From the NCBI RefSeq assembly GCF_025380365.1, contig NZ_JAOCQF010000005.1, positions 1 to 64,000 of the forward strand: a DNA stretch of 64,000 nt. The letters run 5' to 3'. The position numbers and the translations under genes were made by a program. The notes beneath the pieces were generated by a model. The model was not told the origin of the DNA, searched no databases, and was given only the letters and a program-made list of their open reading frames with translations. The first letter of the stretch is position 1, and each line of letters begins with the position of its first letter. Origin of the DNA: Albidovulum sediminis (GTDB lineage Bacteria > Pseudomonadota > Alphaproteobacteria > Rhodobacterales > Rhodobacteraceae). Shown one piece after another: positions 44,351 to 59,765 of this stretch.

Positions 44351-45352
44351 CTAGGAAAAGCGCGCGATGTATTCCCTGGCCAGTTTCGCGGTTCCGGATG
44401 CGAAATGCGGCGCCATCGCCTGCGGTTCAGGAGCCTCGATATGGCTGCCGATCCAGGCGAGGAGTGCCATGCGGCGCAGCATGATGAAGGTGTCGATCTC
44501 GGCCTCTTCCTCGTCAGACAGCGGGCGGACCGAACGGTAGCCCTGAACCCAGGCATGCCGCAGCGCGGGAACCTGGGGATGATCCTCCATGAAGCTGATG
44601 CCGGTTGCGAAGTCGTAAAGGAACCAGCCCAAGCCGCAGTCGTCGAAGTCGATCAGCCGCGTGGTCTCGCCCTCGATCAGCAGGTTCGCCAGCCGCATGT
44701 CGGCGTGGATCAGGCCGAAGCGCTCGGGCCCCTTTCCAAAGGCCGCGAGGCGATCGCAGATCAGGGCCTGGGCATCTTCCAGCACCGCACGGATCTCGGG
44801 AGTGACATTCGGCGCGTCGCGCCAGTCGCCCCAGTTTGCCTGCGGGCCGAAGACGGCGTCGGCATCCCAGTGCAGCCGCTCCAGGGGGGCAGGTTTCTGC
44901 CAACCCTGCGAGTGCATATGGGTCCGCGCGGCGATGGCCCCGAGACGTTCGAAGGGGCCGGCGAGATCCTCGTTTTCATCGGGCTGGCGGCCGGGGGCGA
45001 AGGCGAACATCACCATGAAACGCGGCGCGGACAGGGCGGGGTGATGCCCTTCCTGCACAAGAGCGCCGTTCCTTCCGGCGATGGGCGGCGGGGTAAGGAC
45101 CATATTGTCGGTCGCCAGCGCCTGCGACCAAGCCAATTCCTGCTGGATCCCCCGGCGGCTGTGATAGGCTGGCCGGTGAATGCGCAGGATCGAGCGGAAC
45201 TCCCCGGCCTCGACCAGATAGGTGGCGTTTTCCGAGACGTTGATCAGCCGCGCCTTTGCCCCTTCGGGCACCGGCCAGAGCGGCAGGGAGGCATTCGCCA
45301 TTTGGTCCAGGTGGCGCAGAAGATCCTGCAAAGGTATGGTGTCGGCCGGCAT
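44351..45352 (-). CDS. Aminoglycoside-phosphotransferase-like small-molecule kinase of the BMC operon
   Basis: A 333-residue APH/choline-kinase-fold enzyme. Brenner motif LIHADMRLANLLI (about 217) and the Mg-binding LIDFDDCGLGWFLYD. RMM-type microcompartment loci encode such a kinase, thought to phosphorylate 1-amino-2-propanol so that a phospho-lyase can release propionaldehyde. Last gene of the operon that also encodes the shell, nine bases after the SDR stop. The substrate is inferred from context. It differs from the kinase at 56291. Confidence 0.83.
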   Translation of the reverse strand: MPADTIPLQDLLRHLDQMANASLPLWPVPEGAKARLINVSENATYLVEAGEFRSILRIHRPAYHSRRGIQQELAWSQALATDNMVLTPPPIAGRNGALVQEGHHPALSAPRFMVMFAFAPGRQPDENEDLAGPFERLGAIAARTHMHSQGWQKPAPLERLHWDADAVFGPQANWGDWRDAPNVTPEIRAVLEDAQALICDRLAAFGKGPERFGLIHADMRLANLLIEGETTRLIDFDDCGLGWFLYDFATGISFMEDHPQVPALRHAWVQGYRSVRPLSDEEEAEIDTFIMLRRMALLAWIGSHIEAPEPQAMAPHFASGTAKLAREYIARFS

Positions 45353-45361
45353 GGAACCCCC

Positions 45362-46141
45362 TCAGATCGACGCCAGAGCTTCCAGCGATTCCGGCAGGAT
45401 CTGGCCGCCGTCCACGACGATCTGCTGGCCGGTGATGTAGCCCGCCTCGTCCGAGGCGAAGAACAGCGCCGCATTGCCGATGTCCTCGACCACGCCCAGC
45501 CGCTTGAGCGGGATCGAATTGGCCATGGTCTTGAGGTAGTCCTCGCCAAGGCCCTGCAGCCCTTCGGTGATGATGTTGCCCGGCATCACCGCGTTGATCG
45601 TGGTGTTGTAGCGCGCAAGCTCCATCGCGGCGGTCTTGATGAAGCCCAGTTGCCCGGCCTTCGACGCACCGTAATGCGACCAGCCGGGATAGCCGGTGAC
45701 CGGCCCGGTGATCGAGGAGGTGACGACGACGCGGCCCTTGCCGGCCTTCTCGAAATGCGGGATCGCGGCCTTGACCGTGAAGAAGGTCGAACGAAGGTTG
45801 GTGGCCATCACATGGTCCCAGTCCTCGGGCGACATGTCGACCATCTTGACCTGCGGGAAGATGCCGGCGTTGACGCAAAGCACATCCAGCCCGCCCTGCG
45901 CCGCCGCGGCCTCGTCCACCATGCGGCGAACGCTGTCGTAATCGGTCACGTCGCAGATCGCCCCGCGCGCGGTGGCGCCGAGCGCGTTCATCTCGGCCAC
46001 CGCATCGTCGATCTCGGCCTTGTGGCGGGCGGCGATCGTCAGCTTGACCCCGGCGCGCGCAAAGCAGCGGGCAATGCCCCGGCCGATGCCCTTGGAGCCC
46101 CCGGTGACGATGACGCTCCGGCCCTTCAGTGATGTCAGCAT
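45362..46141 (-). CDS. Short-chain dehydrogenase of the BMC operon, possible amino-alcohol dehydrogenase
   Basis: A 259-residue SDR: VTGGSKGIGRGIARCF, CVNAGIFPQVKMVDM, Ser in VVVTSSITGPVTG, Tyr-x3-Lys in HYGASKAGQLGF, and YITGQQIVVDGGQILPESLE. In the mycobacterial RMM locus an SDR interconverts aminoacetone and 1-amino-2-propanol; the operon position here suggests the same job, but the specificity is inferred. The ATG at 46141 follows GGGAGG. No shell-targeting peptide is evident, so it may act outside the compartment. Confidence 0.82.
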   Translation of the reverse strand: MLTSLKGRSVIVTGGSKGIGRGIARCFARAGVKLTIAARHKAEIDDAVAEMNALGATARGAICDVTDYDSVRRMVDEAAAAQGGLDVLCVNAGIFPQVKMVDMSPEDWDHVMATNLRSTFFTVKAAIPHFEKAGKGRVVVTSSITGPVTGYPGWSHYGASKAGQLGFIKTAAMELARYNTTINAVMPGNIITEGLQGLGEDYLKTMANSIPLKRLGVVEDIGNAALFFASDEAGYITGQQIVVDGGQILPESLEALASI

Positions 46142-46167
46142 GGTATCCTCCCTTTTTCTTCTTTGTT

Positions 46168-46962
46168 TCAGTCGCGCGGCCGCATCCAGCGCATCAGCAC
46201 CAGCCCGACCGCGACAAGCAGCGTGGATCCGATCACCGAGAGCACGCCCAGTGCCGGAATTTGCGGCGTATAGCCCGAGACCATCCGCGAATAGAGCCAT
46301 TTCGGCAGGGTCGCATCGACGCCCGTGGTGAACAGCGACAACGGGAAGTTGCCCCAGGACAGCAGGAAGGCGAACAGCCCGGCCGAGACGATCCCCGGCA
46401 TCAGGAGCGGCAGCGTGATCTCGCGCAGCACGGTCAGGGTCGAGGCTCCCATGTCGCGCGCGGCCTCCTCCAGCGCGGGATCGAAGGCATAGGCGCGGAT
46501 GGCGATGATCAGCGTGGTGATCGGCGCGATCCAGACCAGATGCGCGACGACCGCCGTCTTCCAGCTGGGCGTGATCCCCAGGGCCGAGAACCAGATCAGG
46601 AGGGCAAGGCCCAGCACCGTCTGCGGAAAGAAGATCGGCAGCAGGATGATCTTCTGGAACAGCCCGCGATAGCGCCACTGGAACCGGGCAAAGGCCAGCG
46701 CGCCGAAGAAGCCGATCACCATCGACAGGATTGTGACCGACACCGCGATTTTCAGCGAGGTGAGAACCAGTTCGTGCACTGTCGGGCTGGTGACGGCGGC
46801 GGTCATCCATTCGCTGGTATAGCGCTTGATCGGAAAGCTCAGGTAGCGCGCCTTCGAAACCGAGGCGAAGCCCACCGAGACCAGCGGCAGATAGAGCAGG
46901 GAGAGGATCACGGCACCGTAGAGATAGAGCGCGATCCGGGTCGATCGGGAAACCTGCCTCAT
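46168..46962 (-). CDS. Polyamine-type ABC transporter permease (PotC-like)
   Basis: A 264-residue permease with six membrane helices and the coupling loop EEAARDMGASTLTVLREITLPLLMPGIVS. The ATG overlaps the stop of the partner permease (46959) by four bases. Together with the other PotABD-like genes it forms a complete importer inside the BMC operon, likely for an amine substrate of the compartment. Confidence 0.9.
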   Translation of the reverse strand: MRQVSRSTRIALYLYGAVILSLLYLPLVSVGFASVSKARYLSFPIKRYTSEWMTAAVTSPTVHELVLTSLKIAVSVTILSMVIGFFGALAFARFQWRYRGLFQKIILLPIFFPQTVLGLALLIWFSALGITPSWKTAVVAHLVWIAPITTLIIAIRAYAFDPALEEAARDMGASTLTVLREITLPLLMPGIVSAGLFAFLLSWGNFPLSLFTTGVDATLPKWLYSRMVSGYTPQIPALGVLSVIGSTLLVAVGLVLMRWMRPRD

Positions 46963-47813
46963 CTCTTGCGCCCCATGATCGCGTCCAGGTCGATCCGGCT
47001 GATCGGCACCAGGGCCAGCAGCGCGACGATGACGATCAGCGTCAGCGACAGGGCCGAGCCGAGCGGCCAGTTCTGGCCGAAGGTAAAGGCGCTTTCGACG
47101 TCATCGGTCAGCACGATCACCGACCGGCCGCCCAGCAGCTTGGCCTCGGCCACCGCGCCGGCGGACAGGACAAAGGTCAAGAGGCAACCCACCATGATCC
47201 CCGGTGCGGCCAGCGGCATCTCGATCTCGAACAGGATGCGCGCCGGGCTGGCCCCCAGATCCGAGGCCGCCAGCCGCGCATCGTCGGGCACCAGCGAGAT
47301 GCCCTGCGCCAGCGGGAACAGCATGAAGGGAAAATAGACATAGCACATGCCGAAGACGATCACCGGCCAGTCGTACAGCGGCGTCTCGAAGCTGAAGCCG
47401 AACCACGCCCGCAGATAGCCTTCAAGCAGGCCCCCCTTCATCAGCGACAGGCTCCAGCCGAACAGGCGGATGTTTTCGGACACGAACAGGATCAGGACGA
47501 CCAGGATGGTGATGACCAGTGTGAACCGGCCAAAGACCTTGGCCATGCCATAGGCGAGCGGCCAGCTGACCAGGAACAGGATCACCGTGGTCAGAAAGGC
47601 CAACCCCAGCGAGCGGAGGAGGGATTTGTAATATCCCTGCTCCCAGATCACCGCGAAGGAGGAAAAGTCCGGCAGATGCGCCAGTTCGAACACTTTTTGC
47701 GGCATCGCCGCAAAGCCTGCGACCAGAAGCAGCGGCATCACGAAGCTCAGCAGCAGCAGGATGCCGATCGGCAGGGCCGACAGCAGGCCCAGGCGACGCT
47801 CAAGCCGTTCCAT
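46959..47813 (-). CDS. Polyamine-type ABC transporter permease (PotB-like)
   Basis: A 284-residue permease with six hydrophobic segments; the coupling loop reads LAASDLGASPARILFEIEMPLAAPGIMVG. Its start overlaps the ATPase gene's end by 14 bases, and its stop overlaps the next permease, so the three are translated together. Periplasmic loops before the second helix (PQKVFELAHLPDFSSF) are usual for PotB proteins. Confidence 0.9.
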   Translation of the reverse strand: MERLERRLGLLSALPIGILLLLSFVMPLLLVAGFAAMPQKVFELAHLPDFSSFAVIWEQGYYKSLLRSLGLAFLTTVILFLVSWPLAYGMAKVFGRFTLVITILVVLILFVSENIRLFGWSLSLMKGGLLEGYLRAWFGFSFETPLYDWPVIVFGMCYVYFPFMLFPLAQGISLVPDDARLAASDLGASPARILFEIEMPLAAPGIMVGCLLTFVLSAGAVAEAKLLGGRSVIVLTDDVESAFTFGQNWPLGSALSLTLIVIVALLALVPISRIDLDAIMGRKR

Positions 47814-48885
47814 CGGCGGCCTCCGCGATCAGATGCACGGCGGCACGATCCCAGCCCAGCGTGACCGGGGTGCCGACCGGCGCGGTCAGGCGGGTTTCGA
47901 AGGGACGCTCGACGGTCACCAGACCGGCGGCCGTGTCGACCGAATACTGGATACGGGACCCCAGGGCATATTCGGCGGTCAGCGTGCCGGACAGGGTGAA
48001 ATCCGCGGCCTGCCCCGCGTCCAGGAAACGGACCAGCTCGGGACGCGCCATCAGCACGCCGGTCCAGCCCGGGGCCACCGCCAGTGCGCCGGGCCGGGCG
48101 CTGATCGCTCCGGCCGGCCAGTCCGGCGTGCCATCGGCCCGGCCTATCACCGGGAACAGGTTCACCTCGCCCATGAAGCTGGCGACAAAGCGGCTGATGG
48201 GGCGGGAATAGATTTCCTCGGCGGTGGCGATCTGTTCGAACCGGCCCGACCGCATGATGGCGATCCGGTCCGACATCACCATGGCCTCTTCCAGCGAATG
48301 GGTGATGTAGACAAAGGTCTTGCCGGTGCGGGCGTGCAGGTCCTTCAACTCCTTCTCCAGCGTCTTGCGCAGGCGGTAGTCCAGGGCCGACAGCGGTTCG
48401 TCGAAGACGATGATCTGCGGGTCGAAGGCCAGCGCCCGGGCCAGCGCCACGCGCTGCCGCTCGCCGCCCGAACATTGCGAGATGCGCTTGCCGTAATAGC
48501 TTTCCGGCAGCCGCAGCAGCGCCAGCAGTTCGATCGCGCGGGTGCGGCGGTCGGCGGGCGCGACGCCCCTGAGCTTCAGCGGGAATTCGATGTTCTGCCC
48601 CACGGTCATGTGCGGGAACAGCGCCAGCGACTGAAAGACCATGCAGGTCGGTCGCTTGTTGGCGGGCATCGTGTCTATGCGGGTGCCGTTCAGGCTGATC
48701 GTGCCCTCGGTCACGTCGTCGATCCCGACCAGCAGCCGGATCAGCGTCGACTTGCCGCTGCCCGATGGGCCGACGATGGTCAGAAACTCACCTTCCGAGA
48801 TGTCCAGGTTGATCCGGTCCAGGGCGGTAAAGCGCCCGAAACGTTTGGTGACGTTCTCGATCTGCACGAAAGGTTTCGCGGCCAT
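47800..48885 (-). CDS. Polyamine-type ABC transporter ATP-binding protein (PotA-like)
   Basis: A 361-residue ATPase: Walker A GPSGSGKSTLIRLLVG, signature CSGGERQRVALARA (Cys instead of the usual Leu), Walker B IIVFDEPLSALD, switch His in FVYITHSLEEAM. A C-terminal TOBE domain spans about 285-355. It powers the PotB/PotC pair. A GC hairpin at 48919-48941 separates it from the upstream binding-protein gene. Confidence 0.91.
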   Translation of the reverse strand: MAAKPFVQIENVTKRFGRFTALDRINLDISEGEFLTIVGPSGSGKSTLIRLLVGIDDVTEGTISLNGTRIDTMPANKRPTCMVFQSLALFPHMTVGQNIEFPLKLRGVAPADRRTRAIELLALLRLPESYYGKRISQCSGGERQRVALARALAFDPQIIVFDEPLSALDYRLRKTLEKELKDLHARTGKTFVYITHSLEEAMVMSDRIAIMRSGRFEQIATAEEIYSRPISRFVASFMGEVNLFPVIGRADGTPDWPAGAISARPGALAVAPGWTGVLMARPELVRFLDAGQAADFTLSGTLTAEYALGSRIQYSVDTAAGLVTVERPFETRLTAPVGTPVTLGWDRAAVHLIAEAADGTA

Positions 48886-48918
48886 CCGGGTCTACTCTTG
48901 GCGTTGAAGGAAAGGGCA

Positions 48919-48941
48919 GCCCGCCGGACCAGCCGGCGGGC
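48919..48941 (-). terminator. GC hairpin behind the PotD-like gene
   Basis: Perfect nine-base arms GCCCGCCGG (48919-48927) and CCGGCGGGC (48933-48941) with a five-base loop, between the binding-protein stop and the ATPase start. No T-run follows. It is most likely an intercistronic stabiliser or partial terminator that favours the binding protein. Confidence 0.55.
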
Positions 48942-48950
48942 CGGGACATG

Positions 48951-50081
48951 TCAGCCCCGACGGGCGGCGACGTAGACCGCCAGCAGTTCGTCGTAGGACG
49001 GCACCACGTCGAATTCGAGGCAGCGCGACATTTCCTCTTCCAGCGTATCGAACTGGATCGCTTCCAGCTTCTCGTCGTCGAAGCGCGCCATCACCTCGGG
49101 ATTGCCCATCTGGGCCACCGGGTTGTAGGTGCCTTCGGCAAAGGCCACGACCTCGGCGATCTCGGGCTTCTGGACGAATTCCAGGAATTCCTCGGCCAGA
49201 TCGGACGGATCGGGGTTGTTCACCGCCGAGGTCAGCTCGACCCAGGATGCGCCGCCCTTGCCGTCGATCGGGCCGCTGCGGGGCGTGATGCCACGCACGA
49301 ACAGCGCGCCGTCATAACGGGCGGGCGAAGCGGTATAGGTCCCGCCGGTGAAGTAGCAGTCGATCTCGCCATTGATCAGCGCGGTGTTCATCGCCACCAG
49401 ATCGTCGGTCATCAGCTTGGCGCCCGCCACGATCTGCTTGGCCGTGTCGGTGAATTTCTGCAGCGCGTCACCTTCGACCGGCTGGAACGGATGGATGCCG
49501 GCCGCAAGGCACAGGTGGATCACGTTCCAGTTGTCATAGGTCAGAAGCCCGTAGCGCCCCTGCATCGCCGGATCGAGGAACAGGTTCCAGCCCTGGTCCT
49601 CGGCCATGTCCTGGCTGATCTTGTCGGTGTTCACGACAAACGAGAACGGCCCATAGCGCTGCGGCATGCCGAGCAGGTCGCCGTTATCCGCAAAGGCGAG
49701 CGGATAGGGCTTCGAGAATTCGGGCGTCATCTTCTCGAAATAGGGCAGGAACCGATCCTTGTTCAGCGGACGGATCAGGTTGTCGCGCAGCATCTCGCCC
49801 CGCGCCCAGGGCTGGTTGACGTTGATCAGGTCCCAGGTGCCGATCTCGCCCGCGCGCAGGCGGTTGATCATCTCGGGGTCCGAGGTGCCGCTTTCTGCCC
49901 GCACGGTCGCACCGGGGTGCAACTCGCGGAACGGGTTCAGAACCTGGTCCGAATTGTAACCCTCCCAGCAGAGGATGTTCAGTCGATCGGCGCGCCCGGC
50001 CCGCGCCATGCGGGGCAGAGACATGGCCGAAAGCCCGGCCAGACCGGCCGCGCCCAAGGTAAATTGGCGTCTGTTGATCAT
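48951..50081 (-). CDS. Polyamine-type ABC substrate-binding protein (PotD-like)
   Basis: A 376-residue exported protein with a Tat-type signal (NRRQFTLGAAGLAGLSAM, cleavage near ARAG). It then reads LNILCWEGYNSDQVLNPF, AGEIGTWDLINVNQPWARGEM and YGPFSFVVNTDKIS, as in spermidine/putrescine binding proteins. A substrate amine is likely; within a BMC operon of RMM type an amino alcohol such as 1-amino-2-propanol is a candidate (inference). The ATG at 50081 follows AGGGAG. It lies 84 bases after the first BMC-T gene. Confidence 0.88.
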   Translation of the reverse strand: MINRRQFTLGAAGLAGLSAMSLPRMARAGRADRLNILCWEGYNSDQVLNPFRELHPGATVRAESGTSDPEMINRLRAGEIGTWDLINVNQPWARGEMLRDNLIRPLNKDRFLPYFEKMTPEFSKPYPLAFADNGDLLGMPQRYGPFSFVVNTDKISQDMAEDQGWNLFLDPAMQGRYGLLTYDNWNVIHLCLAAGIHPFQPVEGDALQKFTDTAKQIVAGAKLMTDDLVAMNTALINGEIDCYFTGGTYTASPARYDGALFVRGITPRSGPIDGKGGASWVELTSAVNNPDPSDLAEEFLEFVQKPEIAEVVAFAEGTYNPVAQMGNPEVMARFDDEKLEAIQFDTLEEEMSRCLEFDVVPSYDELLAVYVAARRG

Positions 50082-50165
50082 CTTCTTCTCCCTGTTTTGA
50101 TTGGTGACCCTGGCGGTTGATCCGCTCTGTCTGGGCACGCCGCCCCTTGCGGAGCGGCGGCAGGC

Positions 50166-50789
50166 TTATCGTCCCTGGATCGCCTCCAGTTTTGCCGTGA
50201 TCGTGTCGCGGGCGATCCGCATGTCGTCCAGCGTGCCGGACATGAACAGCCGGCCCGTCGCGCCCATCATCTGCACGTCGTTGATGACAGCATTCGGGGC
50301 GGCCTTCTCGGCCTCGTTCGCGGCCACGCAGGCGAACAGCGCGGGCGCCATCTCGTAGATCAGCAGCGCAACCCCCGGCACGAGGATCGACGCATCGCGG
50401 GAACGGTTCAGGATGATCGCATGCTGGTCCGACAGGTCCTCGATGATGTCGTGATAGAGGATCTGCGGTTTCAGCTGGTCTTCCGGTTTCGCCCCGATTC
50501 CCTCCAGAATCGCCGTGCCGGCCGAATCCAGATCTTCCATCCGGTCCGAGTGCAGTTCGAGAAGCCCGAACTGCCGTTCGGTATAAAGGATCCCCGGTTC
50601 CATCTCGGGCGCTGATTTCAGCGCGAGGTCGGTGATGCGGTGGATCGCCAGCGCCGGTGCGACCTCGATGATCAGCGAATGCTGCCCGGCGAAGGGCGGG
50701 TATCCCCTCGCCCGGGTGGGCGAGGAAAGATAGGCCGCAAACTGGGGCTGGAGATCCTCGATGGGGAGATAGACGCGAAGCTCTGTCAT
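50166..50789 (-). CDS. Microcompartment shell protein, tandem-domain BMC-T (first)
   Basis: A 207-residue protein with two BMC domains (about 1-105 and 106-205): halves share patterns such as LIIEVAPALAIHRITDLALK with ERQFGLLELH, then ALLIYEMAPALFACVAANEAEKAAPN with GATGRLFMSG. BMC-T proteins form trimers that look like hexagons and often have gated pores. A paralogue is encoded at 51829-52443. Two BMC-T proteins beside one BMC-H and one BMC-P is the shell set known from the mycobacterial RMM organelle. Confidence 0.88.
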   Translation of the reverse strand: MTELRVYLPIEDLQPQFAAYLSSPTRARGYPPFAGQHSLIIEVAPALAIHRITDLALKSAPEMEPGILYTERQFGLLELHSDRMEDLDSAGTAILEGIGAKPEDQLKPQILYHDIIEDLSDQHAIILNRSRDASILVPGVALLIYEMAPALFACVAANEAEKAAPNAVINDVQMMGATGRLFMSGTLDDMRIARDTITAKLEAIQGR

Positions 50790-50821
50790 GCCTCAGTCCT
50801 TGGTTTGGGATGCGGCCGGGC

Positions 50822-51103
50822 TCAGGCCTTGATGGCTTCGAAGTGCTTGGCCAGGTCGGGGTGCGGGCGCGGAATGACGTGGACGGCGGTGACTTCGCCG
50901 ACCTGCGCGGCCGCCTCGGCCCCGGCTTCGGTCGCGGCCTTCACCGCGCCCACATCGCCGCGCACCACCACCGACACCAGACCGCCGCCGACTTCATTGC
51001 GGGCGATGATTTCGACATTGGCCGCCTTGACCATGGCGTCTGCCGCCGACAGGGCGGGGACATAGCCCTTGGTTTCGATCATTCCGATTGCGAGATTTGC
51101 CAT
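50822..51103 (-). CDS. Microcompartment shell protein, hexamer BMC-H
   Basis: A 93-residue single-domain protein in canonical BMC-H form: [28 protein letters not shown], then [42 protein letters not shown]. The pore-lining turn lies in EVGGGLV. It makes the main hexagonal facets. It is the only BMC-H in the operon, so it must be the bulk shell component. The upstream Shine-Dalgarno GGGAG is good. Confidence 0.95.
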
Positions 51104-51116
51104 GTTGAGAACTCCC

Positions 51117-51371
51117 TTACTTGCGTTTCGTGTCTTGCTCGTCGATCGAGCCGATGATCAATGCGTCGATCGGCGCCGATCTTTCCGGAAAATAGGCAGC
51201 TGCGACCGACCCTTGCGTGATCAGCACCGCCTCGCCCTCGGCACAGCCGAGCGGATCGAAGGCGACCAGCTTCGCCCCGGTTTCCGTCTCGACTTCCAGA
51301 AGCGCCCCGGTGGGAAGCGTGCCGATATGCCGGGTAGACCACAGCCTGCCGCTGACGCGTGCCCGTATCAT
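51117..51371 (-). CDS. Microcompartment vertex protein, pentamer BMC-P (EutN/CcmL)
   Basis: An 84-residue EutN/CcmL-family protein: [56 protein letters not shown]. These pentamers cap shell vertices. The ATG overlaps the stop of the 154-residue protein upstream (ATGA). A single copy suffices for a closed shell. Confidence 0.93.
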
Positions 51372-51832
51372 GCCAGTGTCCTTTCGATCCTGATGCCGCG
51401 CCGGCGGGCTTCGTCGCCGGCCAGCGGGGTAAGCCGCGCGGATTTCGTGAGGCGCAGGCGGGTTTCACCCTCTGCGATCCCGGCAATATCGCGCTCGGTG
51501 ATCAGCCCCTTGCGCAGCTCCGGCACCGCAGCCGGAACCGTCGTCACCAGGGCCATGGGCTGCGCCGCCACGGGAATCCGTGCAGCCGCCGGGGCGGGTG
51601 CGGGCGCGCTGTAGCCAGGCCCGTCCAGTTCAAAGCGCAGGCGTCCATCCCGCAGGGCGGCGGCAAAGGCCGGGTCCTGGGCGCGGCGCGCGACCGACTG
51701 CGCAAAGTCCGTCAGATCGGCGCCCGAGTTGACCCGGACCCGCTCCACCTGCAAGCCACCCAGAAGCTCGGCGCGGATCGCGGCGATCTCCTCGGACAGC
51801 AGCTCGCGGACAAGGGCGCGGAGATCGGTCAT
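51368..51832 (-). CDS. Unknown 154-residue protein of the microcompartment operon
   Basis: I do not recognise a named function. The N-terminus is an amphipathic helix (DLRALVRELLSEEIAAIRAE), then a helical region to about 60, an Ala/Pro-rich linker at about 75-95, and a C-terminal module of about 50 residues: GLITERDIAGIAEGETRLRL with LTPLAGDEARRRGI. That module resembles a short motif in several microcompartment and ethanolamine-utilisation proteins. RMM loci carry a small unknown gene in this place. Helix, linker and module suggest a cargo or scaffold protein (inference). It overlaps both neighbours by four bases. Confidence 0.72.
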   Translation of the reverse strand: MTDLRALVRELLSEEIAAIRAELLGGLQVERVRVNSGADLTDFAQSVARRAQDPAFAAALRDGRLRFELDGPGYSAPAPAPAAARIPVAAQPMALVTTVPAAVPELRKGLITERDIAGIAEGETRLRLTKSARLTPLAGDEARRRGIRIERTLA

Positions 51833-52443
51833 CCGGTGGCCCCCGCATCGCGCAGGGCGCGTTCCGCCGCGTCACGGGCATTGCGCACGTCGGCCTCGGT
51901 CCCGGCCAGGTAAAGCCGGCCGTTCGCACCGATCATCCGCATGTCGATGACCTTGATGTCGGCCTCTTTCTCGGCCTCGTTGCAGGCCAGGATCGCATAG
52001 GCCGCCGGCTGGCATTCCAGCAGATAGATGCTTTCCCCGCCCAGGACCATCGAGCCGGTCTTGTTCCGGTTCATCAGGAAGGCGTGCTGGTCGTCGACCC
52101 GGGTGACGATCTTCGACGCCATGATCTTGGGCTTTTCCGCCTCGTCCCTGCGCTTTCCCATGGCATGCAGCGCGGCCTCGGCCCCGGCCTGCACCTCGGC
52201 CGTGGAATAGGCATGGAACTGCAGCGTGCCGAACTGGCGTTCGACCACCAGAAAGCCCGCCCGCACGTCGGCGCTTTTCAGCACCGTGTCGGTCAGCGCC
52301 TCGATGTCGAGGCCGGGCGCGATCTCGATGATCTGGGCCGCCATGCGGGCCCGCGGCAAGGTGCCGCGCATCCAGGTTGCGGTATAGGCCAGGGTCTGCG
52401 GCTGCAACTGGTCGATGAAGATGAAAGCGCGAAGATCGGTCAC
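51829..52443 (-). CDS. Microcompartment shell protein, tandem-domain BMC-T (second)
   Basis: A 204-residue tandem BMC protein: IIEIAPGLDIEALTDTVLK with ERQFGTLQFH in the first half, IYLLECQPAAYAILACNEAEKEADIKVIDMRMIGANGRLYLAG in the second. It is clearly paralogous to the protein at 50166 but divergent, so the two trimers probably have different pores. The ATG overlaps the aldehyde dehydrogenase stop. A glutamine- and proline-containing loop (LQPQTLAY) is shared with the first copy (LQPQFAAY). Confidence 0.88.
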   Translation of the reverse strand: MTDLRAFIFIDQLQPQTLAYTATWMRGTLPRARMAAQIIEIAPGLDIEALTDTVLKSADVRAGFLVVERQFGTLQFHAYSTAEVQAGAEAALHAMGKRRDEAEKPKIMASKIVTRVDDQHAFLMNRNKTGSMVLGGESIYLLECQPAAYAILACNEAEKEADIKVIDMRMIGANGRLYLAGTEADVRNARDAAERALRDAGATG

Positions 52444-53990
52444 GACTGGCCTCGGGTCAGTTCACGGAGTTCCTGAAGGATGAGCTGGCGCAGCATGTCG
52501 CGATCCATCCCGCCGGCCTCGGCTAGGGGGGCCGCTGCCGGGGCGGGCGCCGGACGCGGCGCGGGAGCCTGTCCCTCGAAGGGAGCGCGCACCGCGCCGA
52601 AATCGCCCATCTGCACCGAGGCGTCCGAATTCCAGGCCAGCCGCGTCCAGTGCACCAGATGCTGCGGCCCGATGTTCTCGCCCACCGACGAGCGGCCGAA
52701 ATAGCCGGTGCCGATCATGAAGGACGGCGCGAGATGCGTGGCAAAGCCCGCCGCGCCCTGCGAACAGGGGGCGTTCACCACCACCCGGTAGACCGAAAGT
52801 GCGGCGGCGAAATCCATCGCCTTCTGCGGGTCCTCGCAGTGGATCGCCGCCGAATGGCCCGCGCCAGTCATCCGCAGGATCATCTGCGCCATGCCCGTCG
52901 CCCGCTCGAAAGTCTCGGCCGTGGCCCAGGCCAGGACCGGGCACAGCTTTTCGCGGGTCAGCGGCTCGTCCAGGCCGACCTGCGCGACCGGAGCGATCAG
53001 CACCCTGGTCGAGGGCACGACCCGCAGGCCCGCCTGCTGCGCGATCCAGACCGCGCTTTTTCCCACGGCCGCCGTGTTCAGATGGCCATGCGGGAAGAGC
53101 CAGGCCCGCAGCTTGCCGACCTCTGGCTCCGACAGGATATGCGCCCCGGCCGCGCGCAGGCCGCGTTCCAGCCGGTTGGCGTTCTCGGCCAGAGAGATCA
53201 GCACGCTTTCGTTGGTGCACAGCACCGAATTGTCGAAGGCCTTGCTGTCGACGATGCGCTGCGCGGCAAGGGTCTGGTCGGCCGTGGGATCGACATAGAC
53301 CGGCGCATTGCCCGGCCCCACGCCGATCGCCGGGTTGCCCGACGAATAGGCCGCCCGCACCATCGGACCACCACCCGTAGCCAGGATCACCTGCACCTTG
53401 GGCGAGGCCATCAGCGCCTGCACCAGCGGAACCGAGGGCTCCTCGATACACTGGATCAACCCCGCCGGGGCCCCCGCCGCTACCGCCGCCGCCTCAAGCC
53501 GGGCCGCGGCATGGGCGCAGCAGGCCCTGGCCAACGGATGGGGGCTGAAGATCACCGCATTGCGGCTGAGCAGTGCCAGGATCGCCTTGTAATACAGCGT
53601 CGAGACGGGATTGGTCGCCGGAGTCAGCGCCAGGACCACCCCTGCGGGCTTCGGGATCTCCACCATCTTGCGGCCAGCATCGACACGCGGGTTCACCAGA
53701 TCGGTATTCTCGTAGAAATCTACCAGCGGATGGGCCGAGAGTTCGTTCTTCAGCCGCTTGTGCTCGACCACGCCCATGCCGGTTTCGCGGACCGCCCATT
53801 CGGCATATTCCTGCGCCGCCTTGTGAGCCGCCTCGGCCACGGCGCGGGTGACGCGCATGACTGCGGCCCGGTCGAAGCGGGCATAGGACCTGACCGCCCA
53901 ACCGGCCCGGTCGATCTTCATCCGCGCAGTGGCCTCGGCCCGGTCGGGCACGACAAGGCGTGGCGCGTCCTCGTGAAGCTGCATCTGCAT
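52440..53990 (-). CDS. CoA-acylating aldehyde dehydrogenase with C-terminal encapsulation peptide
   Basis: A 516-residue enzyme of the PduP/EutE type: LALTPATNPVSTLYYK, ATGGGPMVRAAYSSGNPAIGVGPGN, catalytic C258 in FDNSVLCTNES, and SVYRVVVNAPCSQGA. It would oxidise propionaldehyde or another short aldehyde to acyl-CoA inside the shell. After an Ala/Pro linker (about 470-490) the last 23 residues (MDRDMLRQLILQELRELTRG) form a short amphipathic helix, the usual signal for cargo loading; in some PduP proteins this peptide is N-terminal instead. It overlaps the BMC-T gene by ATGA. Confidence 0.92.
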   Translation of the reverse strand: MQMQLHEDAPRLVVPDRAEATARMKIDRAGWAVRSYARFDRAAVMRVTRAVAEAAHKAAQEYAEWAVRETGMGVVEHKRLKNELSAHPLVDFYENTDLVNPRVDAGRKMVEIPKPAGVVLALTPATNPVSTLYYKAILALLSRNAVIFSPHPLARACCAHAAARLEAAAVAAGAPAGLIQCIEEPSVPLVQALMASPKVQVILATGGGPMVRAAYSSGNPAIGVGPGNAPVYVDPTADQTLAAQRIVDSKAFDNSVLCTNESVLISLAENANRLERGLRAAGAHILSEPEVGKLRAWLFPHGHLNTAAVGKSAVWIAQQAGLRVVPSTRVLIAPVAQVGLDEPLTREKLCPVLAWATAETFERATGMAQMILRMTGAGHSAAIHCEDPQKAMDFAAALSVYRVVVNAPCSQGAAGFATHLAPSFMIGTGYFGRSSVGENIGPQHLVHWTRLAWNSDASVQMGDFGAVRAPFEGQAPAPRPAPAPAAAPLAEAGGMDRDMLRQLILQELRELTRGQS

Positions 53991-54005
53991 CCCCCTTCTC
54001 CCGGA

Positions 54006-55286
54006 TCAGGCGGCCCGCCGCGGGCTGCGCAACAGCGCCCGCACGCGCGGCATGGCCGCTTCCATCCGGTCGACGATTTCCTGACAGGTTGCGACGTCCA
54101 GAAGGACGCCCGGCTTGAACTGCAACACCCGCTTGTCGAGCGACGAGAAGATCGCCCAGACCCCGTTTTCATACAGCGCGCGAGACACGGCGACCGCACC
54201 CTCGGGGTGGTCGAACTCCAGCCCAAGGATCACCCCGCGCTGGCGGATGCCGACGAAGACATCGCTGTGGGCGGCCATCATCTGGTTCAGGCTGCGGTGG
54301 AAGAAATCCGCGACGAAATGGACATTCGAGATGACCTCGGGGCGCTGCAGGATGTCGATGACCTGATGGCCCACCACGCAGCCCAGCTCCGACCCGCCCG
54401 AGGTGCTGATATGCGCAGCCCCGTCCTCATGCAGCCAGCCACCACATTTCTCGGTCACGACGCAGGCCGAGATCGGGTAGATCCCGCCGCCCAGGCCCTT
54501 GCCGGTGACGAACATGTCCGGCTCCAGCCCATAGGACTGCCAGCCCCACATCATCCCGGTGCGCATCAGCCCGGTCTGCACCTCGTCGGCGATGTAAAGC
54601 GTGCCATAGCGGCGGCACAGCTCCTGGCAGGCCTTCAGATAGCCGTCGTTGGGCATCGGGAAGCCGTAGGTGGCCGGGATCGTCTCGATGATGAAGGCCG
54701 CCACGTCGCGACCGCGCAGCGCGCGCTCCAGCGCGTCGATGTCGTTGAACGGGACCTGGACGAATTCCTCGGGCCGGTCGGCCAGGAAGATCTTCGAGAA
54801 ACGGTCGTCGCCGGTCGCCACCGACAGGCCCGAATGGCCATGGTAGCCCTTGATGATCGACACGATCTTGCGGCGTTTTGTGGCATATCGGGCAGTCTTC
54901 AGTGCGATTTCCACAGCCTCGGCGCCGCCTGCGCCGAAGATCGCGTATTTCATCCCCGGCGCGGTCTTGACCAGCTTTTCCGCAAAGGCCGCCCGTGCGA
55001 CCGACGGAAACCAATGGTTGCCCATGTCGAAATAGTCCAGCGCCGACTTCAGCGTGGCGACCAGCTCGGGGTTGCGATGGCCAAAATTGTAAGTCCCGCC
55101 ATTGAGATGCAGGTCGATCAGCCGGCGACCGGACATGTCGTAAAGGAAGTAGCCCTCGCGCCGGTCGATCACCAGATCGATGCCCGCATCCTGCCAGAAC
55201 TTGGTCTTGCCGGGGTTCCAGTATTCGATCGCCTTGTCGAGCAGCTCGGCCTTCGAATCGAAGTTGAAGAATCCGTAGTTGAACAC
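54006..55286 (-). CDS. Class-III aminotransferase-fold enzyme, probable amino-alcohol phosphate phospho-lyase
   Basis: A 426-residue PLP enzyme: LHLNGGTYNFGHRNPELV, IFGAGGAEAVEIALKTAR, KGYHGHSGLSVAT, ADEVQTGLMRTG with D234, and the PLP lysine K263 in VTGKGLGGGIYP. Relatives include ethanolamine-phosphate phospho-lyase. With the kinase of this operon it could turn an O-phospho amino alcohol into aldehyde, ammonia and phosphate; plain transamination is the alternative. A GTG start at 55286 follows GGAGG. First gene of the BMC operon, divergent from the DeoR gene. Confidence 0.88.
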   Translation of the reverse strand: MFNYGFFNFDSKAELLDKAIEYWNPGKTKFWQDAGIDLVIDRREGYFLYDMSGRRLIDLHLNGGTYNFGHRNPELVATLKSALDYFDMGNHWFPSVARAAFAEKLVKTAPGMKYAIFGAGGAEAVEIALKTARYATKRRKIVSIIKGYHGHSGLSVATGDDRFSKIFLADRPEEFVQVPFNDIDALERALRGRDVAAFIIETIPATYGFPMPNDGYLKACQELCRRYGTLYIADEVQTGLMRTGMMWGWQSYGLEPDMFVTGKGLGGGIYPISACVVTEKCGGWLHEDGAAHISTSGGSELGCVVGHQVIDILQRPEVISNVHFVADFFHRSLNQMMAAHSDVFVGIRQRGVILGLEFDHPEGAVAVSRALYENGVWAIFSSLDKRVLQFKPGVLLDVATCQEIVDRMEAAMPRVRALLRSPRRAA

Positions 55287-55430: not shown

Positions 55431-56234
55431 TTGAAACCGACGAGATCGCGCAAGGAAATGCGCCACGCCCGAATCCTGGCGGCGCTGGAGGCCAACCCGA
55501 CTCTTCGGGTCAACCAGTTGGCAGACCAGCTTGAAGTCTCGACCGAGACCATCCGCCGCGACCTGGCCGAGTTGGACCAGATCGGCCGGCTGAGCCGCAC
55601 CTATGGCGGCGCGGTCAGCGCAGGCAGCCGATTCGAGCCGGCGCTGACGGAGCGTCTGGCCCTGCATGTGGCGGAACGGCGGGCCATCGCCGAGACGGCC
55701 GTGGACCGCTTTGGCGATTCCGAAACGCTGGTTCTGGGCGGCGGGGCAACCATGCTGACCTTTGCCCGAGCCCTGCGCGATACCCAGCAGCGCCGCACTG
55801 TCATCACCCCCGCCTACCCCATTGCGGTGGAGCTGTCCGCCAACCCGCTGATCGAGGTCATGCTTCTGCCCGGCATCTTCGAACCGCAGGAACGGGTGGT
55901 CTACGGTCCCGAAACGATCCGCGCGCTGGAGCGCTATCGCGCCGAGGTGGCAATCATCGGCGCCTCGGGCCTGGCCGCCGCCGGGATCAGCGAGGCGATG
56001 CTGCAGGTCGGCGAGATCTATGGCGCGCTGTTGCGGACGGCGGAACGCGTCGTCGTGCTTGCCGACCATTCCAAGTTCGGCAAGCGCGCCCTGACGCTGC
56101 TCAGCAGCTGGAGCAACCGGATCAGCCTTGTGACCGACCGGATGCCCGAAGGCGATCTGTACCTCACGATGCGCGAGGCCGGGGCGCAGATCATCCTGCC
56201 CGACAACTCTGGGTCCGACAGCACAGGCCGCTGA
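55431..56234 (+). CDS. DeoR-family regulator of the microcompartment operon
   Basis: A 267-residue DeoR protein: helix-turn-helix (RHARILAALEANPTLRVNQLADQLEVSTETIRRDLAEL, with RLSRTYGG), then a sugar-phosphate-isomerase-like effector domain with GGGATMLTFARAL, GASGLAAAGISEA and LADHSKFGKRA. DeoR proteins often sense phosphorylated metabolites, which would fit a kinase-made intermediate. A TTG start at 55431 behind GGGGGG is chosen; an ATG at 55458 has a poor ribosome site. Divergent from the BMC operon. Confidence 0.87.
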   Translation: MKPTRSRKEMRHARILAALEANPTLRVNQLADQLEVSTETIRRDLAELDQIGRLSRTYGGAVSAGSRFEPALTERLALHVAERRAIAETAVDRFGDSETLVLGGGATMLTFARALRDTQQRRTVITPAYPIAVELSANPLIEVMLLPGIFEPQERVVYGPETIRALERYRAEVAIIGASGLAAAGISEAMLQVGEIYGALLRTAERVVVLADHSKFGKRALTLLSSWSNRISLVTDRMPEGDLYLTMREAGAQIILPDNSGSDSTGR

Positions 56235-56290: not shown

Positions 56291-57280
56291 TCAGGCCGTC
56301 GCGGGAACCGAGCGCCGCACGGCCTCCAGCAGGGCCGGGAACTCCGGGGCGCGCATGATGGCCTGGCACCGGGTGAAACGGTCCATGGCATAGTCCCAGT
56401 AGCTCTTGAACTGATAGGCCGGCCGGGGGTTCCTGTTGGCTTCCTGCAGGCAGCCCCACAGCGTCCACAGCAGGAAGGCCAGCGCCTTGTAGCACATGAC
56501 CCGGCCATATTCGCCGTCGGTCGGCAACCGGCCCAGATAGGCCTCCAGGAACTGGCGGTCCTGCGCCTCGGTAAAGCCGGCCTCGACCGACAGGTCGGCG
56601 ATGTCCCAGAAGGGATCGTTGTTGCCAGCGAATTCCCAGTCCAGGATATGGGCGCGCGTGCCGGTGTAGACCAGATTTTCGGGCGCCGGATCATTGTGGC
56701 AGGGCACAAGCTCCGGCGCCGTGGCACGCAGCGCGCTGCGGATCACCTCGGCCTCTTCCTGGACCTGGGCATAGCCATCGGGCATCCGCGCGTTGCGGGC
56801 CGACAGCAGGTCGAGATATTCCTGCGCCACGGTCTTTTCGTTGAAATCGTTGCGCAGCTTCTTGCCGCAGGTGTGCAGCGTGCGAAAGGCCAGGGCCGCC
56901 TCGGACACTGCGCGGGGATCGCGCAGGATCTCGGGGTTCATCGGCACCGCGCCCTCGACAAAACGCGTAATCTGCGCGCCGGTCGCCGGATCGTACCAGA
57001 CCAGCGGTGCGTTCACCCCCAGCGAGGAGGTCAACCGCCCGGCCTCTTCGTCCGCCTTGCGGTCGATGTAATCCTCGGTGCCCGCGCCCGGGATGCGGAC
57101 CACGAACCGCTGGCCGTTCACCGTGACCAGATAGTTGCGGTTCGTCATCCCGGCCAGCGGTTCGATCCCGATGGTGGACGGGTCGACGGGAGTCTCGAAG
57201 ATGTGCCGCGAGGCAAGGTCCTGGGCGCGGATCTGGCGATCGCGCTCTTCCGCGTCGGTGTTTAGTCCCTGTTGTGTCAT
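56291..57280 (-). CDS. Choline/ethanolamine kinase-like phosphotransferase
   Basis: A 329-residue kinase-fold enzyme: LAGMTNRNYLVTVNGQRFVVRIPG, CHNDPAPENLVY with HILDWEFAGNNDPFWDIADLSVEAGF. These are choline-kinase motifs rather than those of the APH kinase at 44351. It probably phosphorylates choline, ethanolamine or an alike amine. It is transcribed with the flavoprotein downstream of the betaine transporter and ends at the terminator. Its product could feed the phospho-lyase of the microcompartment operon, but this is speculation. Confidence 0.83.
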   Translation of the reverse strand: MTQQGLNTDAEERDRQIRAQDLASRHIFETPVDPSTIGIEPLAGMTNRNYLVTVNGQRFVVRIPGAGTEDYIDRKADEEAGRLTSSLGVNAPLVWYDPATGAQITRFVEGAVPMNPEILRDPRAVSEAALAFRTLHTCGKKLRNDFNEKTVAQEYLDLLSARNARMPDGYAQVQEEAEVIRSALRATAPELVPCHNDPAPENLVYTGTRAHILDWEFAGNNDPFWDIADLSVEAGFTEAQDRQFLEAYLGRLPTDGEYGRVMCYKALAFLLWTLWGCLQEANRNPRPAYQFKSYWDYAMDRFTRCQAIMRAPEFPALLEAVRRSVPATA

Positions 57281-57298
57281 TTTCTTCTCCTTTTTGGC

Positions 57299-59713
57299 TC
57301 AGCCGCGCATCCGCAACCCCTCGGGGTCGTAGAGCGGGCCATCGACGCGGCGCGCGGCAATCCGCTCGCCGTAGACCTCGACCTCAAAGTCCGCATGACC
57401 CGCCTCAGCCGCGGGGACATAGCCAAAGACGATCGACTTTCCGACCGTATGGCCGAAGTCGCCCGAGGTGGTGACGCCGAGCACCTTGCCGTCGCGCAGG
57501 ATGCATTCGCCTCCATGTACGGGGGATTTGACATCCAGCACAAAGGTGCACAGGCGGCGATCCGGGCCACCCGCATCGCGGATCCGTTCCAGCGCGGCGC
57601 GGCCGATGAAGTCGCCCTTCTTCCAGGACACCAGCCGGTCCAGCCCGGCATGGAACGGCGTGTAGTCCGGCGAGACATCGCCCGCCCAGACGATAAAGCC
57701 CTTCTCCATCCGCAGGCTGTTCAGGCTGCGATAGCCGATGTCGCGGATACCCTGCGGCTGGCCCGCCTCGGACAACACGCGATAGACATGCGCGGCATAT
57801 TCGGTCGGGACATGCAGCTCATAGCCCAGTTCGCCGGTGAACGACACGCGCATGGCCCGGACCGGCGCGGCGCCCAGCGTCAGGTTGCGCATCTGCCCGT
57901 GACGGAAGGCAGCGCCCGACACATCCTCTTCGGCCACGGCGGCCAGCACGTCGCGCGACCTGGGGCCGCACAGGTTGATCACCGCCCAGCCCGAGGTGAC
58001 GTCGATCGTATGGACCGGCCCGTCCTGCGGCAGGTGCTGCCGGATCCAGCCAAAATCATGCCCACCAAAGGCCGTGCCGGTCACGACATAGAAATGCTCC
58101 GCCCCCAGCCGGCAGAGGGTCAGGTCGGCCTCGATCCCACCCGTTTCGTTCAGCATCTGGGTGTAGATCACGCTGCCGACCGGACGGTCCACATTGGCGA
58201 CCGCCAACCGTTGCAGCGCGGCCAGCGTGCCCGGCCCCATCACCTCCATCTTGGCGAAGGAGGACAGGTCGATCATCGCCACGCCCTCGCGCACGGCGCG
58301 GTGTTCCGCGGCGACATGGACATGCCAGTTCGGCCAGTCGAACGAGGGCTTATCCACCGGCTCGACACCCGCCGGGGCAAACCAGTTCGGCCGCTCCCAG
58401 CCCGCCCGCGACCCGAAGACCGCGCCCTTTTCCTTCAGCAGCGGATACAGCGGCGAGCTGCGGATGCGGCGGACCGACTCCAGCTCCTCGGTCGGCCATT
58501 TCATCTTGTAGTGATGGGCATAGATCTCGACCGCGCGGTCGTACATGAAATACCGCGTGTTGTGGTGGAACGAGAACCGGCGCACGTCCAGCGGCCAGAG
58601 CGCATTGGCGGGGCGCCCCTCCAGGATCCATTCCGCCATCACCGCGCCCGCGCCACCGGCGGCGGCGATGCCATATACGAAGCCGGCCGAGACAAAGACG
58701 TTGTCCAGTTCGGGCGCCTTGCCCATCACGAAATCGCCGTCCGCCGAAATCGGGATCGCGCCGTTGATCATCTGGCGCACGCCGACCGTACCCACGACCG
58801 GGGTGCGCCGGGCCGCATTGACGGCCAGCTGCTCGAACCGTTCGAAATTGTCGGGCAGCAGGCGCATGTCCCATCCGGACGGAATGCCGTTGCGGGCAAA
58901 GGCCAGGGTGTCGGGCTCATAGCCGCCGACGACGATGCCGCGGGTCTCCGGCTTCCAGTACAGCAGCAGGTCGGGGTCGCGCACCGTCGGCATGCCCTTC
59001 GGCAGGTCGGGGATCGGATCGGTGATCAGGTACTGGTGTTCGACGGCAAAGGCCGGAATCCGGCTGCCCATCATCTTGCCCAGCTCATGCCCCCACATCC
59101 CGGCGCAGTTCACCACCGTCTCGCAGGCGACATCGCCCTGCGCGGTGCGCACCTGGGTGATGCGGCGGTTCTCGATGCCAAAGCCGGTGACCTCGCAGCC
59201 CTGGATGAAGCGCACGCCCCGCGCCCGGGCACCGGCTGCCAGCGCCTGGCACAGGCTGGCCGGGTCGACATAGCCGTCCGAGGCGATGAAGGTCGCGCCC
59301 TCGACCCCGTCCAGCGACATGATGGGAAACATGTCCTGCGCCTCTTTCGGGGTCAGGATGTCCATCTCCATCCCGAAGGACCGCGCCGTGGTGGCCGAGC
59401 GGCGGAACTCTTTCATCCGGTCCTTGGACGAGGCGATTCGCAGCGAGCCCACCTGCTTGAAGTCGATGGCCTGCCCGGCTTCCTCTTGCAGGGTGGCGTA
59501 CAGCGCCACGCTGCGGCGCAGCATCCGTGTGACGTTCTGGGAATTCCGCAGCTGTCCCACCACGCCGGCCGCATGCCAGGTCGCGCCATGCGTCAGCTGG
59601 AACTGTTCCAGCACGACCACATCGGTGACGCCCTCCTTTGCCAGATGATAGGCGATGGAGCAGCCGATGATTCCGCCGCCGACGATCACGATTTGCGCTG
59701 ATTGAGGTAGCAT
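57299..59713 (-). CDS. FAD-dependent dimethylglycine/sarcosine dehydrogenase-like protein with GcvT domain
   Basis: An 804-residue two-domain protein. N-terminal FAD domain (IVIVGGGIIGCSIAYHLAKEG; TWHAAGVVGQLRNS with the His that carries covalent FAD in dimethylglycine dehydrogenase). C-terminal GcvT/tetrahydrofolate domain from about 430 (FDWPNWHVHVAAEHRAVREGVAMIDLSSFAKMEV, GELGYELHVPTEYAAHVYRVL, GDFGHTVGKSI). It oxidises an N-methylated glycine and passes the methyl carbon to folate. The ATG at 59713 follows AGGAA. It lies between the kinase and the betaine-type ABC genes. Confidence 0.9.
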   Translation of the reverse strand: MLPQSAQIVIVGGGIIGCSIAYHLAKEGVTDVVVLEQFQLTHGATWHAAGVVGQLRNSQNVTRMLRRSVALYATLQEEAGQAIDFKQVGSLRIASSKDRMKEFRRSATTARSFGMEMDILTPKEAQDMFPIMSLDGVEGATFIASDGYVDPASLCQALAAGARARGVRFIQGCEVTGFGIENRRITQVRTAQGDVACETVVNCAGMWGHELGKMMGSRIPAFAVEHQYLITDPIPDLPKGMPTVRDPDLLLYWKPETRGIVVGGYEPDTLAFARNGIPSGWDMRLLPDNFERFEQLAVNAARRTPVVGTVGVRQMINGAIPISADGDFVMGKAPELDNVFVSAGFVYGIAAAGGAGAVMAEWILEGRPANALWPLDVRRFSFHHNTRYFMYDRAVEIYAHHYKMKWPTEELESVRRIRSSPLYPLLKEKGAVFGSRAGWERPNWFAPAGVEPVDKPSFDWPNWHVHVAAEHRAVREGVAMIDLSSFAKMEVMGPGTLAALQRLAVANVDRPVGSVIYTQMLNETGGIEADLTLCRLGAEHFYVVTGTAFGGHDFGWIRQHLPQDGPVHTIDVTSGWAVINLCGPRSRDVLAAVAEEDVSGAAFRHGQMRNLTLGAAPVRAMRVSFTGELGYELHVPTEYAAHVYRVLSEAGQPQGIRDIGYRSLNSLRMEKGFIVWAGDVSPDYTPFHAGLDRLVSWKKGDFIGRAALERIRDAGGPDRRLCTFVLDVKSPVHGGECILRDGKVLGVTTSGDFGHTVGKSIVFGYVPAAEAGHADFEVEVYGERIAARRVDGPLYDPEGLRMRG

Positions 59714-59765
59714 TTCCTGTAGACCTGCCTTGTGAAGATGGGCCCGGGCCGCGCCGCGCGCGGCC

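Follow-up and report, generated by a model that had tools for sequence, protein, structure and literature searches.

Microcompartment loci of the Rhodococcus and Mycobacterium (RMM) type, described in these genera as RMM1, Aaum or Aut, encode a bacterial microcompartment (BMC) shell of two BMC-T proteins, a BMC-H and a BMC-P, a small unknown protein, a CoA-acylating aldehyde dehydrogenase (AldDH), a pyridoxal 5′-phosphate (PLP) enzyme, a short-chain dehydrogenase/reductase (SDR) and an APH-family kinase; their genomes lack PduL, and the operons contain no alcohol dehydrogenase. RMM2 is the form with a B12 diol dehydratase. The type has already been published for Alphaproteobacteria, as RMM2 in Paracoccus yeei (excerpts of PMC8156839), and the Aut BMC for Proteobacteria (excerpts of Ravcheev 2019, PMC6620236). 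Here we analyse a window of 64,000 nucleotides from Albidovulum sediminis (contig NZ_JAOCQF010000005.1, positions 1 to 64,000), part of a 129-kb contig in a 4.29-Mb genome, in which an operon of 13 open frames on the minus strand (44351–55286; intergenic gaps −14 to +84 nt) has the same shell set and enzymes as RMM1 and the same two absences. In contrast to RMM1, the operon is found in Proteobacteria, has a Pot-type ABC importer for the amino-acid permease and a DeoR-type for the GntR regulator, and its importer–SDR–kinase block is a movable unit. RMM in Alphaproteobacteria, the propionyl-CoA route and the idea of a bifunctional RMM2 are already in print. We found no published description of the importer linkage; the supplementary locus tables of the catalogue papers, which we did not read, may list importer genes.

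Assignment of the operon to the RMM type is supported by sequence comparison, namely by orthology to the M. smegmatis shell proteins MSM0271 and MSM0275, the best match of the kinase, and the AldDH and PLP enzyme trees, with the SDR match as weaker support. This bears out the enzyme and shell set proposed in an earlier reading made from the sequence alone (the sequence-only reading). Against solved structures, the BMC-T at 50166 matches the RMM shell protein MSM0271 (E-value 1e-84; next best 9e-43) and the BMC-T at 51829 matches MSM0275 (3e-80; next 3e-46). The former has no Pfam match at 0.001, the latter has a PF00936 match (3e-6), and a CcmP-type NCBIfam model matches both below its cut-off (1e-51 and 4e-59, respectively). 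Together with one BMC-H and one BMC-P, these two proteins make up the RMM/Aaum shell. At E ≤1e-99, MSM0271-type BMC-T proteins occur in 5 of 198 genomes of the family, own genome included, with weaker matches in 4 more; at 1e-50 they occur in 11 of 385 genomes of the class and 3 of 398 of the phylum, again including our own; and an actinobacterial query finds them in 19 of 296 Actinomycetes genomes, centre genome included. The kinase (APH, PF01636, 4e-24) matches 6ef6 at 5e-82, the next chain following at 4e-13, and is thus of the aminopropanol type that marks RMM/Aaum loci. We take 6ef6, and likewise 6ci8 and 6ci9, to be the M. smegmatis RMM enzymes of Mallette and Kimber, an identity that could not be confirmed.

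In trees, the AldDH and the PLP enzyme fall with their RMM counterparts. The AldDH, whose matches are to CoA-acylating enzymes, lies in a proteobacterial group of 24 (SH-aLRT 83; 98 for 22 of the 24) that adjoins 14 actinobacterial RMM rows (96), the 38 together being supported at 96; beyond these 38 come the R. jostii-type and TauD-associated rows, followed by EutE, PduP, AdhE and other enzymes. This tree of 52 rows (43 of the 107 extracted, the window and 8 outgroups) was a quick IQ-TREE run with SH-aLRT support only, rooted on the 8 outgroups, which have long branches. The PLP enzyme, of class III, falls in a single clade of 36 RMM rows (100), within which the proteobacterial RMM rows form a clade (99); this tree combined the window and 8 outgroups with 35 of the 93 rows extracted, L096 being dropped as too short. 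For the BMC-T proteins, MSM0271-type rows lie on one side of a branch with support 98, whereas the MSM0275-type rows include three outside proteins, and this type is therefore not RMM-specific. The kinase tree says little on membership, its two outgroups being too distant (branch length 10).

The importer is a regular companion of the RMM-type organelle in Proteobacteria. A scan of named genomes, in which the best 80 of 345 relatives were kept and which is therefore biased to close relatives, gave 55 loci with sufficient flanks (25 were left out for flanks of less than 8 kb on the left or 6 kb on the right). Two of these are actinobacterial; the other 53, all from the named scan alone, are titled Alphaproteobacteria (40) or Gammaproteobacteria (9) or carry no class (4). 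Importer and SDR both lie within the flank in 46 of the 53 and, in a 47th (L074), beyond its flank (L185), and the SDR accompanies the importer in all 47 loci that have one. The remaining six (L049, L052, L057, L069, L096 and L112) have neither within the flank, and their whole genomes contain no binding-protein match at 1e-40. In the 46, the order binding protein–PotA–PotB–PotC–SDR–kinase, or its last five genes, is kept, whereas the position of the block varies: in 23 loci it is upstream of the shell genes and in the other 23 downstream (21 on the same strand, 2 on the opposite one), so that it behaves as a module. The sequence-only reading had described an importer inserted between shell and enzyme genes; the position is correct, but what it took for an insertion is a conserved module.

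By contrast, none of 20 actinobacterial loci (18 surveyed, plus L114 and L124) contains Pot genes. Within the stretch available, an amino-acid permease is present in 13 of them, a GntR gene in all 20, and SDR and kinase in 19 each; among the 7 without a permease, 5 end at a contig edge and 2 (L171 and L178) do not. This agrees with the contrast drawn earlier with the actinobacterial permease. As the window has a Pot-type importer in place of that permease, we filed it as a variant; likewise, a DeoR/GlpR-family regulator takes the place of the GntR regulator. Other arrangements occur among the relatives. In L069 (Rhizobium sp.), a permease and a kinase replace the Pot–SDR block, and L052 (10717–18412), L057, L112 and L068 have an RMM core up to about 90% identical to that of the window with an amidase instead of the Pot–SDR–kinase block. 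L052 and L057 carry a ribose-type binding protein, the amidase and a choline-kinase-like protein; in L112 no PLP gene was seen.

The importer is complete and of PotABCD type, as first read, in its permease and ATPase families and in the fold of its binding protein, with the PotA, PotB and PotC labels resting on NCBIfam matches below curated cut-offs. The binding protein is weakly PotD-like by sequence (9e-5) and has no match among PDB sequences. Its AlphaFold2 model (mean pLDDT 78.7) superposes on PotD (1pot) with Z 27.9 and 3.0 Å over 320 residues, and the first 25 rows of the fold search comprise 24 titled polyamine receptors, variants or putative ones, and YdcS, which places it in the fold expected of a polyamine ABC importer. 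Profile alignment was better with PotD (96%) than with PotF (58%). In the PotD alignment, W41-x-x-Y44 (A4 numbering) pairs with W-T-E-Y, and W282-x-E284 with W-x-D, PotD residues that we take to be ligand contacts. Because of this fold match and the alignment at these residues, the predicted ligand is likely an amine. Compared with E. coli PotABCD and PotFGHI, the window importer has the same subunit make-up, ATPase and permease families and binding-protein fold, but its binding protein is only about 16% identical and its family scores lie below curated cut-offs. In these loci the importer always comes with the SDR, and we therefore favour aminoacetone, which would need the SDR for its conversion, over the amino alcohol itself.

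Class III aminotransferases bind the keto-acid carboxylate through a conserved Arg. PatA, GabT and ArgD of E. coli have this Arg; at its site, Gln is found in 93 of 94 RMM rows (87 distinct), and the Glu of the QGEGG motif in the same three enzymes is Thr in 93 of 94, the remaining row (L096) having a gap. Loss of the keto-acid-binding Arg, which is expected of a phospho-lyase, makes a normal transaminase unlikely, and the kinase upstream of the PLP enzyme in the scheme makes most sense if the latter eliminates phosphate. Sequence features thus suggest that the window enzyme is probably a phospho-lyase, not a transaminase. It shares the class III family and a partner kinase with phosphoethanolamine-type phospho-lyases (5g4i and 6tor), and the R. 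jostii homologue of these is also without the Arg (Lys); unlike that homologue, the window enzyme has Gln, belongs to a separate clade and is nearer to aminotransferases in sequence. In R. jostii RHA1, another kind of PLP enzyme is encoded at the RMM-type locus, with phospho-lyases as its closest relatives of solved structure (5g4i, 2e-94; 6tor, 1e-87). On pRHL2 this enzyme (L029:14611–16218) lies near a kinase, an annotated ethanolamine permease and a duplicated shell-gene set. A second class III PLP enzyme in the window genome (L159; C13:130439–131440) groups with the R. jostii phospho-lyase-type protein (100).

The aldehyde is pointed to by diol dehydratase linkage. A diol dehydratase large subunit (PF02286) is found in 10 of 25 chosen genomes with RMM-type shells, two of which are of the TauD type, one match being partial; it adjoins the RMM locus in 7 of the 10, on the same strand in 6 of these, and lies on other contigs in the other 3. 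It is present in the available flank of 16 of 78 non-actinobacterial scan loci and 11 of 20 actinobacterial loci, and within the family sample in 2 of 5 RMM genomes compared with 2 of 193 others (P = 0.003, with small numbers and shared ancestry). This linkage points to propionaldehyde, at which the amino-alcohol and diol routes would meet, in agreement with the proposal of Mallette and Kimber, as cited in excerpts of PMC8156839, that aminoacetone is converted to propionyl-CoA in M. smegmatis. RMM2 shares core and shell with the window, and in several of the scan loci with a diol dehydratase this gene is on the strand of the importer block; the difference is that the window genome has no diol dehydratase. 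In L182, L183, L184, L185 and L186, B12 diol dehydratase genes lie beside the importer–SDR–kinase block on that strand, which suggests one compartment for two substrates. In excerpts of Axen 2014 (PMC4207490), RMM2 is thought not to use its diol dehydratase, the opposite strand being cited, with a bifunctional compartment as the alternative; the same-strand loci favour that alternative. P. yeei TT13, for which excerpts of Asija 2021 (PMC8156839) list RMM2, grows on propylene glycol, and its describers deduced a pyruvate route from the absence of a pdu operon (Lim 2018, PMC5773746).

Taken together, we read the operon, with a probability of roughly 70%, as encoding a microcompartment of the RMM/Aaum type, served by its own amine importer, which processes an aldehyde, converting propionaldehyde to propionyl-CoA; we infer both the organelle and its substrate from the genes. 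In the proposed pathway, the importer would take up aminoacetone or 1-amino-2-propanol, the SDR would reduce aminoacetone to 1-amino-2-propanol, the kinase would phosphorylate the latter and the PLP enzyme, as a phospho-lyase, would release ammonia, phosphate and propionaldehyde. The shell would retain the propionaldehyde while the AldDH makes propionyl-CoA, which would exit to the methylmalonyl-CoA route.

Several observations weigh against this reading. The AldDH resembles acetaldehyde enzymes of the EutE and AdhE kind more closely than PduP, and its C-terminus, although like an encapsulation peptide, is not unusually amphipathic, as 29% of the protein's own 18-mers score equally high for hydrophobic moment; among homologues, the C-terminal stretch is in the protein's own top 10% in 60 of 106. 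The SDR (family match 5e-60) passes the NCBIfam cut-offs of a FabG-named model, and its best PDB matches (6ci8, 5e-95; 6ci9, 1e-94) are closely followed by other SDRs (6e-87 and 4e-85). In sequence, the PLP enzyme is closer to PigE and to the aminotransferases for putrescine (PatA) and ornithine than to any known phospho-lyase (6tor, 6e-31), PigE and PatA being its nearest solved relatives. At the Arg site, the 11 comparison rows comprise 6 with Arg, 2 with Lys (the R. jostii enzyme and own_L159) and 3 from the own genome with other letters, one of them Gln, where the alignment is poor. No diol dehydratase large subunit (PF02286) was found in the window genome, and an amine other than those proposed may be what the importer carries. 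Finally, the locus counts are not independent, given the common ancestry of the loci and the presence of some genomes in two rows; in the wider set of 114 loci, several unnamed loci, L031 and L063 among them, are the same genomes as named ones.

The EutE- and AdhE-like character of the AldDH would suit the same chemistry acting mainly on ethanolamine or another amino alcohol, with acetaldehyde and acetyl-CoA as products and the SDR serving a related ketone or alcohol. The R. jostii variant, with its annotated ethanolamine permease and ethanolamine-phosphate phospho-lyase homologue, lends this some weight. Ethanolamine would need no SDR, however, yet the SDR is present with the importer in all 47 loci; its best solved relatives are taken to be aminopropanol dehydrogenases, and the diol dehydratase linkage indicates propionaldehyde. 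We consider such a substrate unlikely.

Alternatively, the PLP enzyme could be a true transaminase, as its best solved relatives, which are aminotransferases, might suggest. It would then form methylglyoxal from aminoacetone, as considered in excerpts of Axen 2014 (PMC4207490), or lactaldehyde from 1-amino-2-propanol, as proposed in excerpts of Ravcheev 2019 (PMC6620236), and the AldDH would produce pyruvyl- or lactyl-CoA. Although already proposed in print, such schemes would give the kinase a role only late, and they are at odds with the phospho-lyase homologue used by the R. jostii variant and with the diol dehydratase linkage to propionaldehyde. A plain transaminase was rejected on the Arg and QGEGG Glu replacements, and we regard these routes as unlikely. 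That the importer is an unrelated polyamine transporter caught in the operon by chance, as its polyamine-receptor fold might suggest, is highly improbable and was rejected given a linkage kept in 47 of the 53 flanked loci, its fixed order with SDR and kinase on whichever side of the shell genes the block lies, and the lack of a binding-protein match in the six importer-less genomes.

In the propionaldehyde pathway, CoA would not be recycled inside the shell by phosphate exchange, as PduL is absent. The sequence-only reading saw no PduL in the operon, and this extends to the whole window genome, which has no PduL-family (PF06130) match. None of 21 genomes with RMM-type shells, 4 of them of the TauD-associated type, has a PduL over the cut-off, with one sub-threshold match in G937. 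A PDU (propanediol utilization) compartment was ruled out, neither PF02286 nor PF06130 having a match in the window genome. All 15 RMM-shell genomes examined have a member of the methylmalonyl-CoA mutase family (PF01642), so that direct use of propionyl-CoA outside the shell is probable. Excerpts of Sutter 2021 (PMC8217296) suggest that large cofactors may pass through gated BMC-T proteins, and the two CcmP-like BMC-T types of the window may let CoA esters through. Redox balance between SDR and AldDH would require both to use the same cofactor.

The 154-aa protein is found in 108 of 114 loci, repeats included, and is probably a lumen or assembly protein. Its N-terminal helix resembles the AldDH C-terminus and its C-terminal part shows PduM-family similarity below cut-off in 25 of 50 members (best 4e-4). 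The model is mostly confident, with no convincing match among PDB folds (Foldseek only; best E 0.26) and no match among PDB sequences. In the TauD-associated locus L041, the linker of this protein contains an extra stretch that appears SnoaL-like by eye.

Because the same shell and AldDH adjoin, in relatives, a B12 diol dehydratase that would yield the same aldehyde from 1,2-propanediol, we regard the compartment as a module for propionaldehyde whose front ends can be exchanged. A more general proposal is possible but doubtful: that RMM shell and AldDH make up, throughout Proteobacteria, a general organelle for propionaldehyde that does not recycle CoA internally, in which the two CcmP-like BMC-T proteins pass CoA esters and front ends are exchanged. 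The candidate front ends would be the importer–SDR–kinase–phospho-lyase set, the B12 diol dehydratase, an amidase paired with a choline-kinase-like enzyme, and a TauD-type dioxygenase, the last in a single related branch.

L041 (5626–10930), L042 and L043, all of one genus, and L044 (5743–10606) have an RMM-type shell and AldDH beside a TauD-family dioxygenase (PF02668; 5e-60 and 9e-59). No PLP enzyme, SDR or kinase was found in these 20-kb loci. The TauD proteins of L041 and L044 have a similar linker and C-terminal stretch, possibly an encapsulation peptide. Such a microcompartment, its signature enzyme being O2-dependent, could represent a new type; none of the literature matches listed describes a TauD-type microcompartment. 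In L116 (5376–15320; contig of L035, a Hyphomicrobiales metagenome-assembled genome), an isochorismatase-family protein follows the shell genes, with HpaB-like and flavin-reductase-like proteins recognized by eye.

All 13 minus-strand genes of the sequence-only reading were recovered in place by open frames and family matches (Table 1); every gene it named is present, and the divergent DeoR-type regulator, which it did not list, has to be added. A DeoR/GlpR-family regulator occupies the same position in many relatives' loci. The operon ends at 55286 because the PLP gene begins there, with a GTG codon. Scans for promoters and terminators did not exceed the level of shuffled sequence, and tRNA and Rfam scans gave no match. 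Past the regulator (56291–59725) lie a choline-kinase-like protein and a sarcosine-oxidase/aminomethyltransferase-like FAD protein, common to Tabrizicola soli and found in few other RMM loci. T. soli is the named near-twin of the window genome, with 16 proteins of the region at 99–100% identity.

Table 1. Genes of the operon and the divergent regulator, with positions in the window
Feature	Position	Strand	Basis
PLP class III enzyme, probable 1-amino-2-propanol-phosphate phospho-lyase	54006..55286	-	GTG start with GGAGG upstream; RMM PLP clade; Gln at transaminase Arg site
CoA-acylating AldDH, C-terminal encapsulation-peptide-like stretch	52440..53990	-	Matches to CoA-acylating enzymes; tree
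BMC-T shell protein, MSM0275 type	51829..52443	-	5l39, E 3e-80
154-aa protein, probable lumen or assembly protein	51368..51832	-	N-terminal helix, small alpha/beta part, variable linker, weakly PduM-like C-terminal part
BMC-P vertex protein	51117..51371	-	PF03319, 6e-19
BMC-H facet protein	50822..51103	-	PF00936, 1e-26
BMC-T shell protein, MSM0271 type	50166..50789	-	5suh, E 1e-84
ABC solute-binding protein, polyamine-receptor fold	48951..50081	-	AlphaFold2 model, fold searches, PotD profile alignment
ABC ATPase, PotA-like	47800..48885	-	ABC ATPase with TOBE_2; NCBIfam below curated cut-off
ABC permease, PotB-like	46959..47813	-	BPD_transp_1; NCBIfam below curated cut-off
ABC permease, PotC-like	46168..46962	-	BPD_transp_1; NCBIfam below curated cut-off
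SDR, aminoacetone/1-amino-2-propanol dehydrogenase type	45362..46141	-	6ci8, E 5e-95; ATG start
APH-family small-molecule kinase, (S)-1-amino-2-propanol kinase type	44351..45352	-	6ef6, E 5e-82; second match 4e-13
Divergent DeoR/GlpR-family regulator, probable operon regulator	55458..56234	+	Start at 55431 (TTG) or 55458 (ATG)

Published accounts count RMM among the microcompartments without the usual enzymes for cofactor recycling and differ as to its aldehyde. The importer–SDR linkage, the loss of the transaminase Arg across the enzyme family and the diol dehydratase linkage reduce this dispute to a short list of assays, and several carrier type strains exist among Proteobacteria. The importer is a direct handle on the natural substrate, since its binding protein can be titrated with candidate ligands. 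If the RMM shell and AldDH do form a general propionaldehyde organelle, the rule that CoA is recycled inside a metabolosome would fail here.

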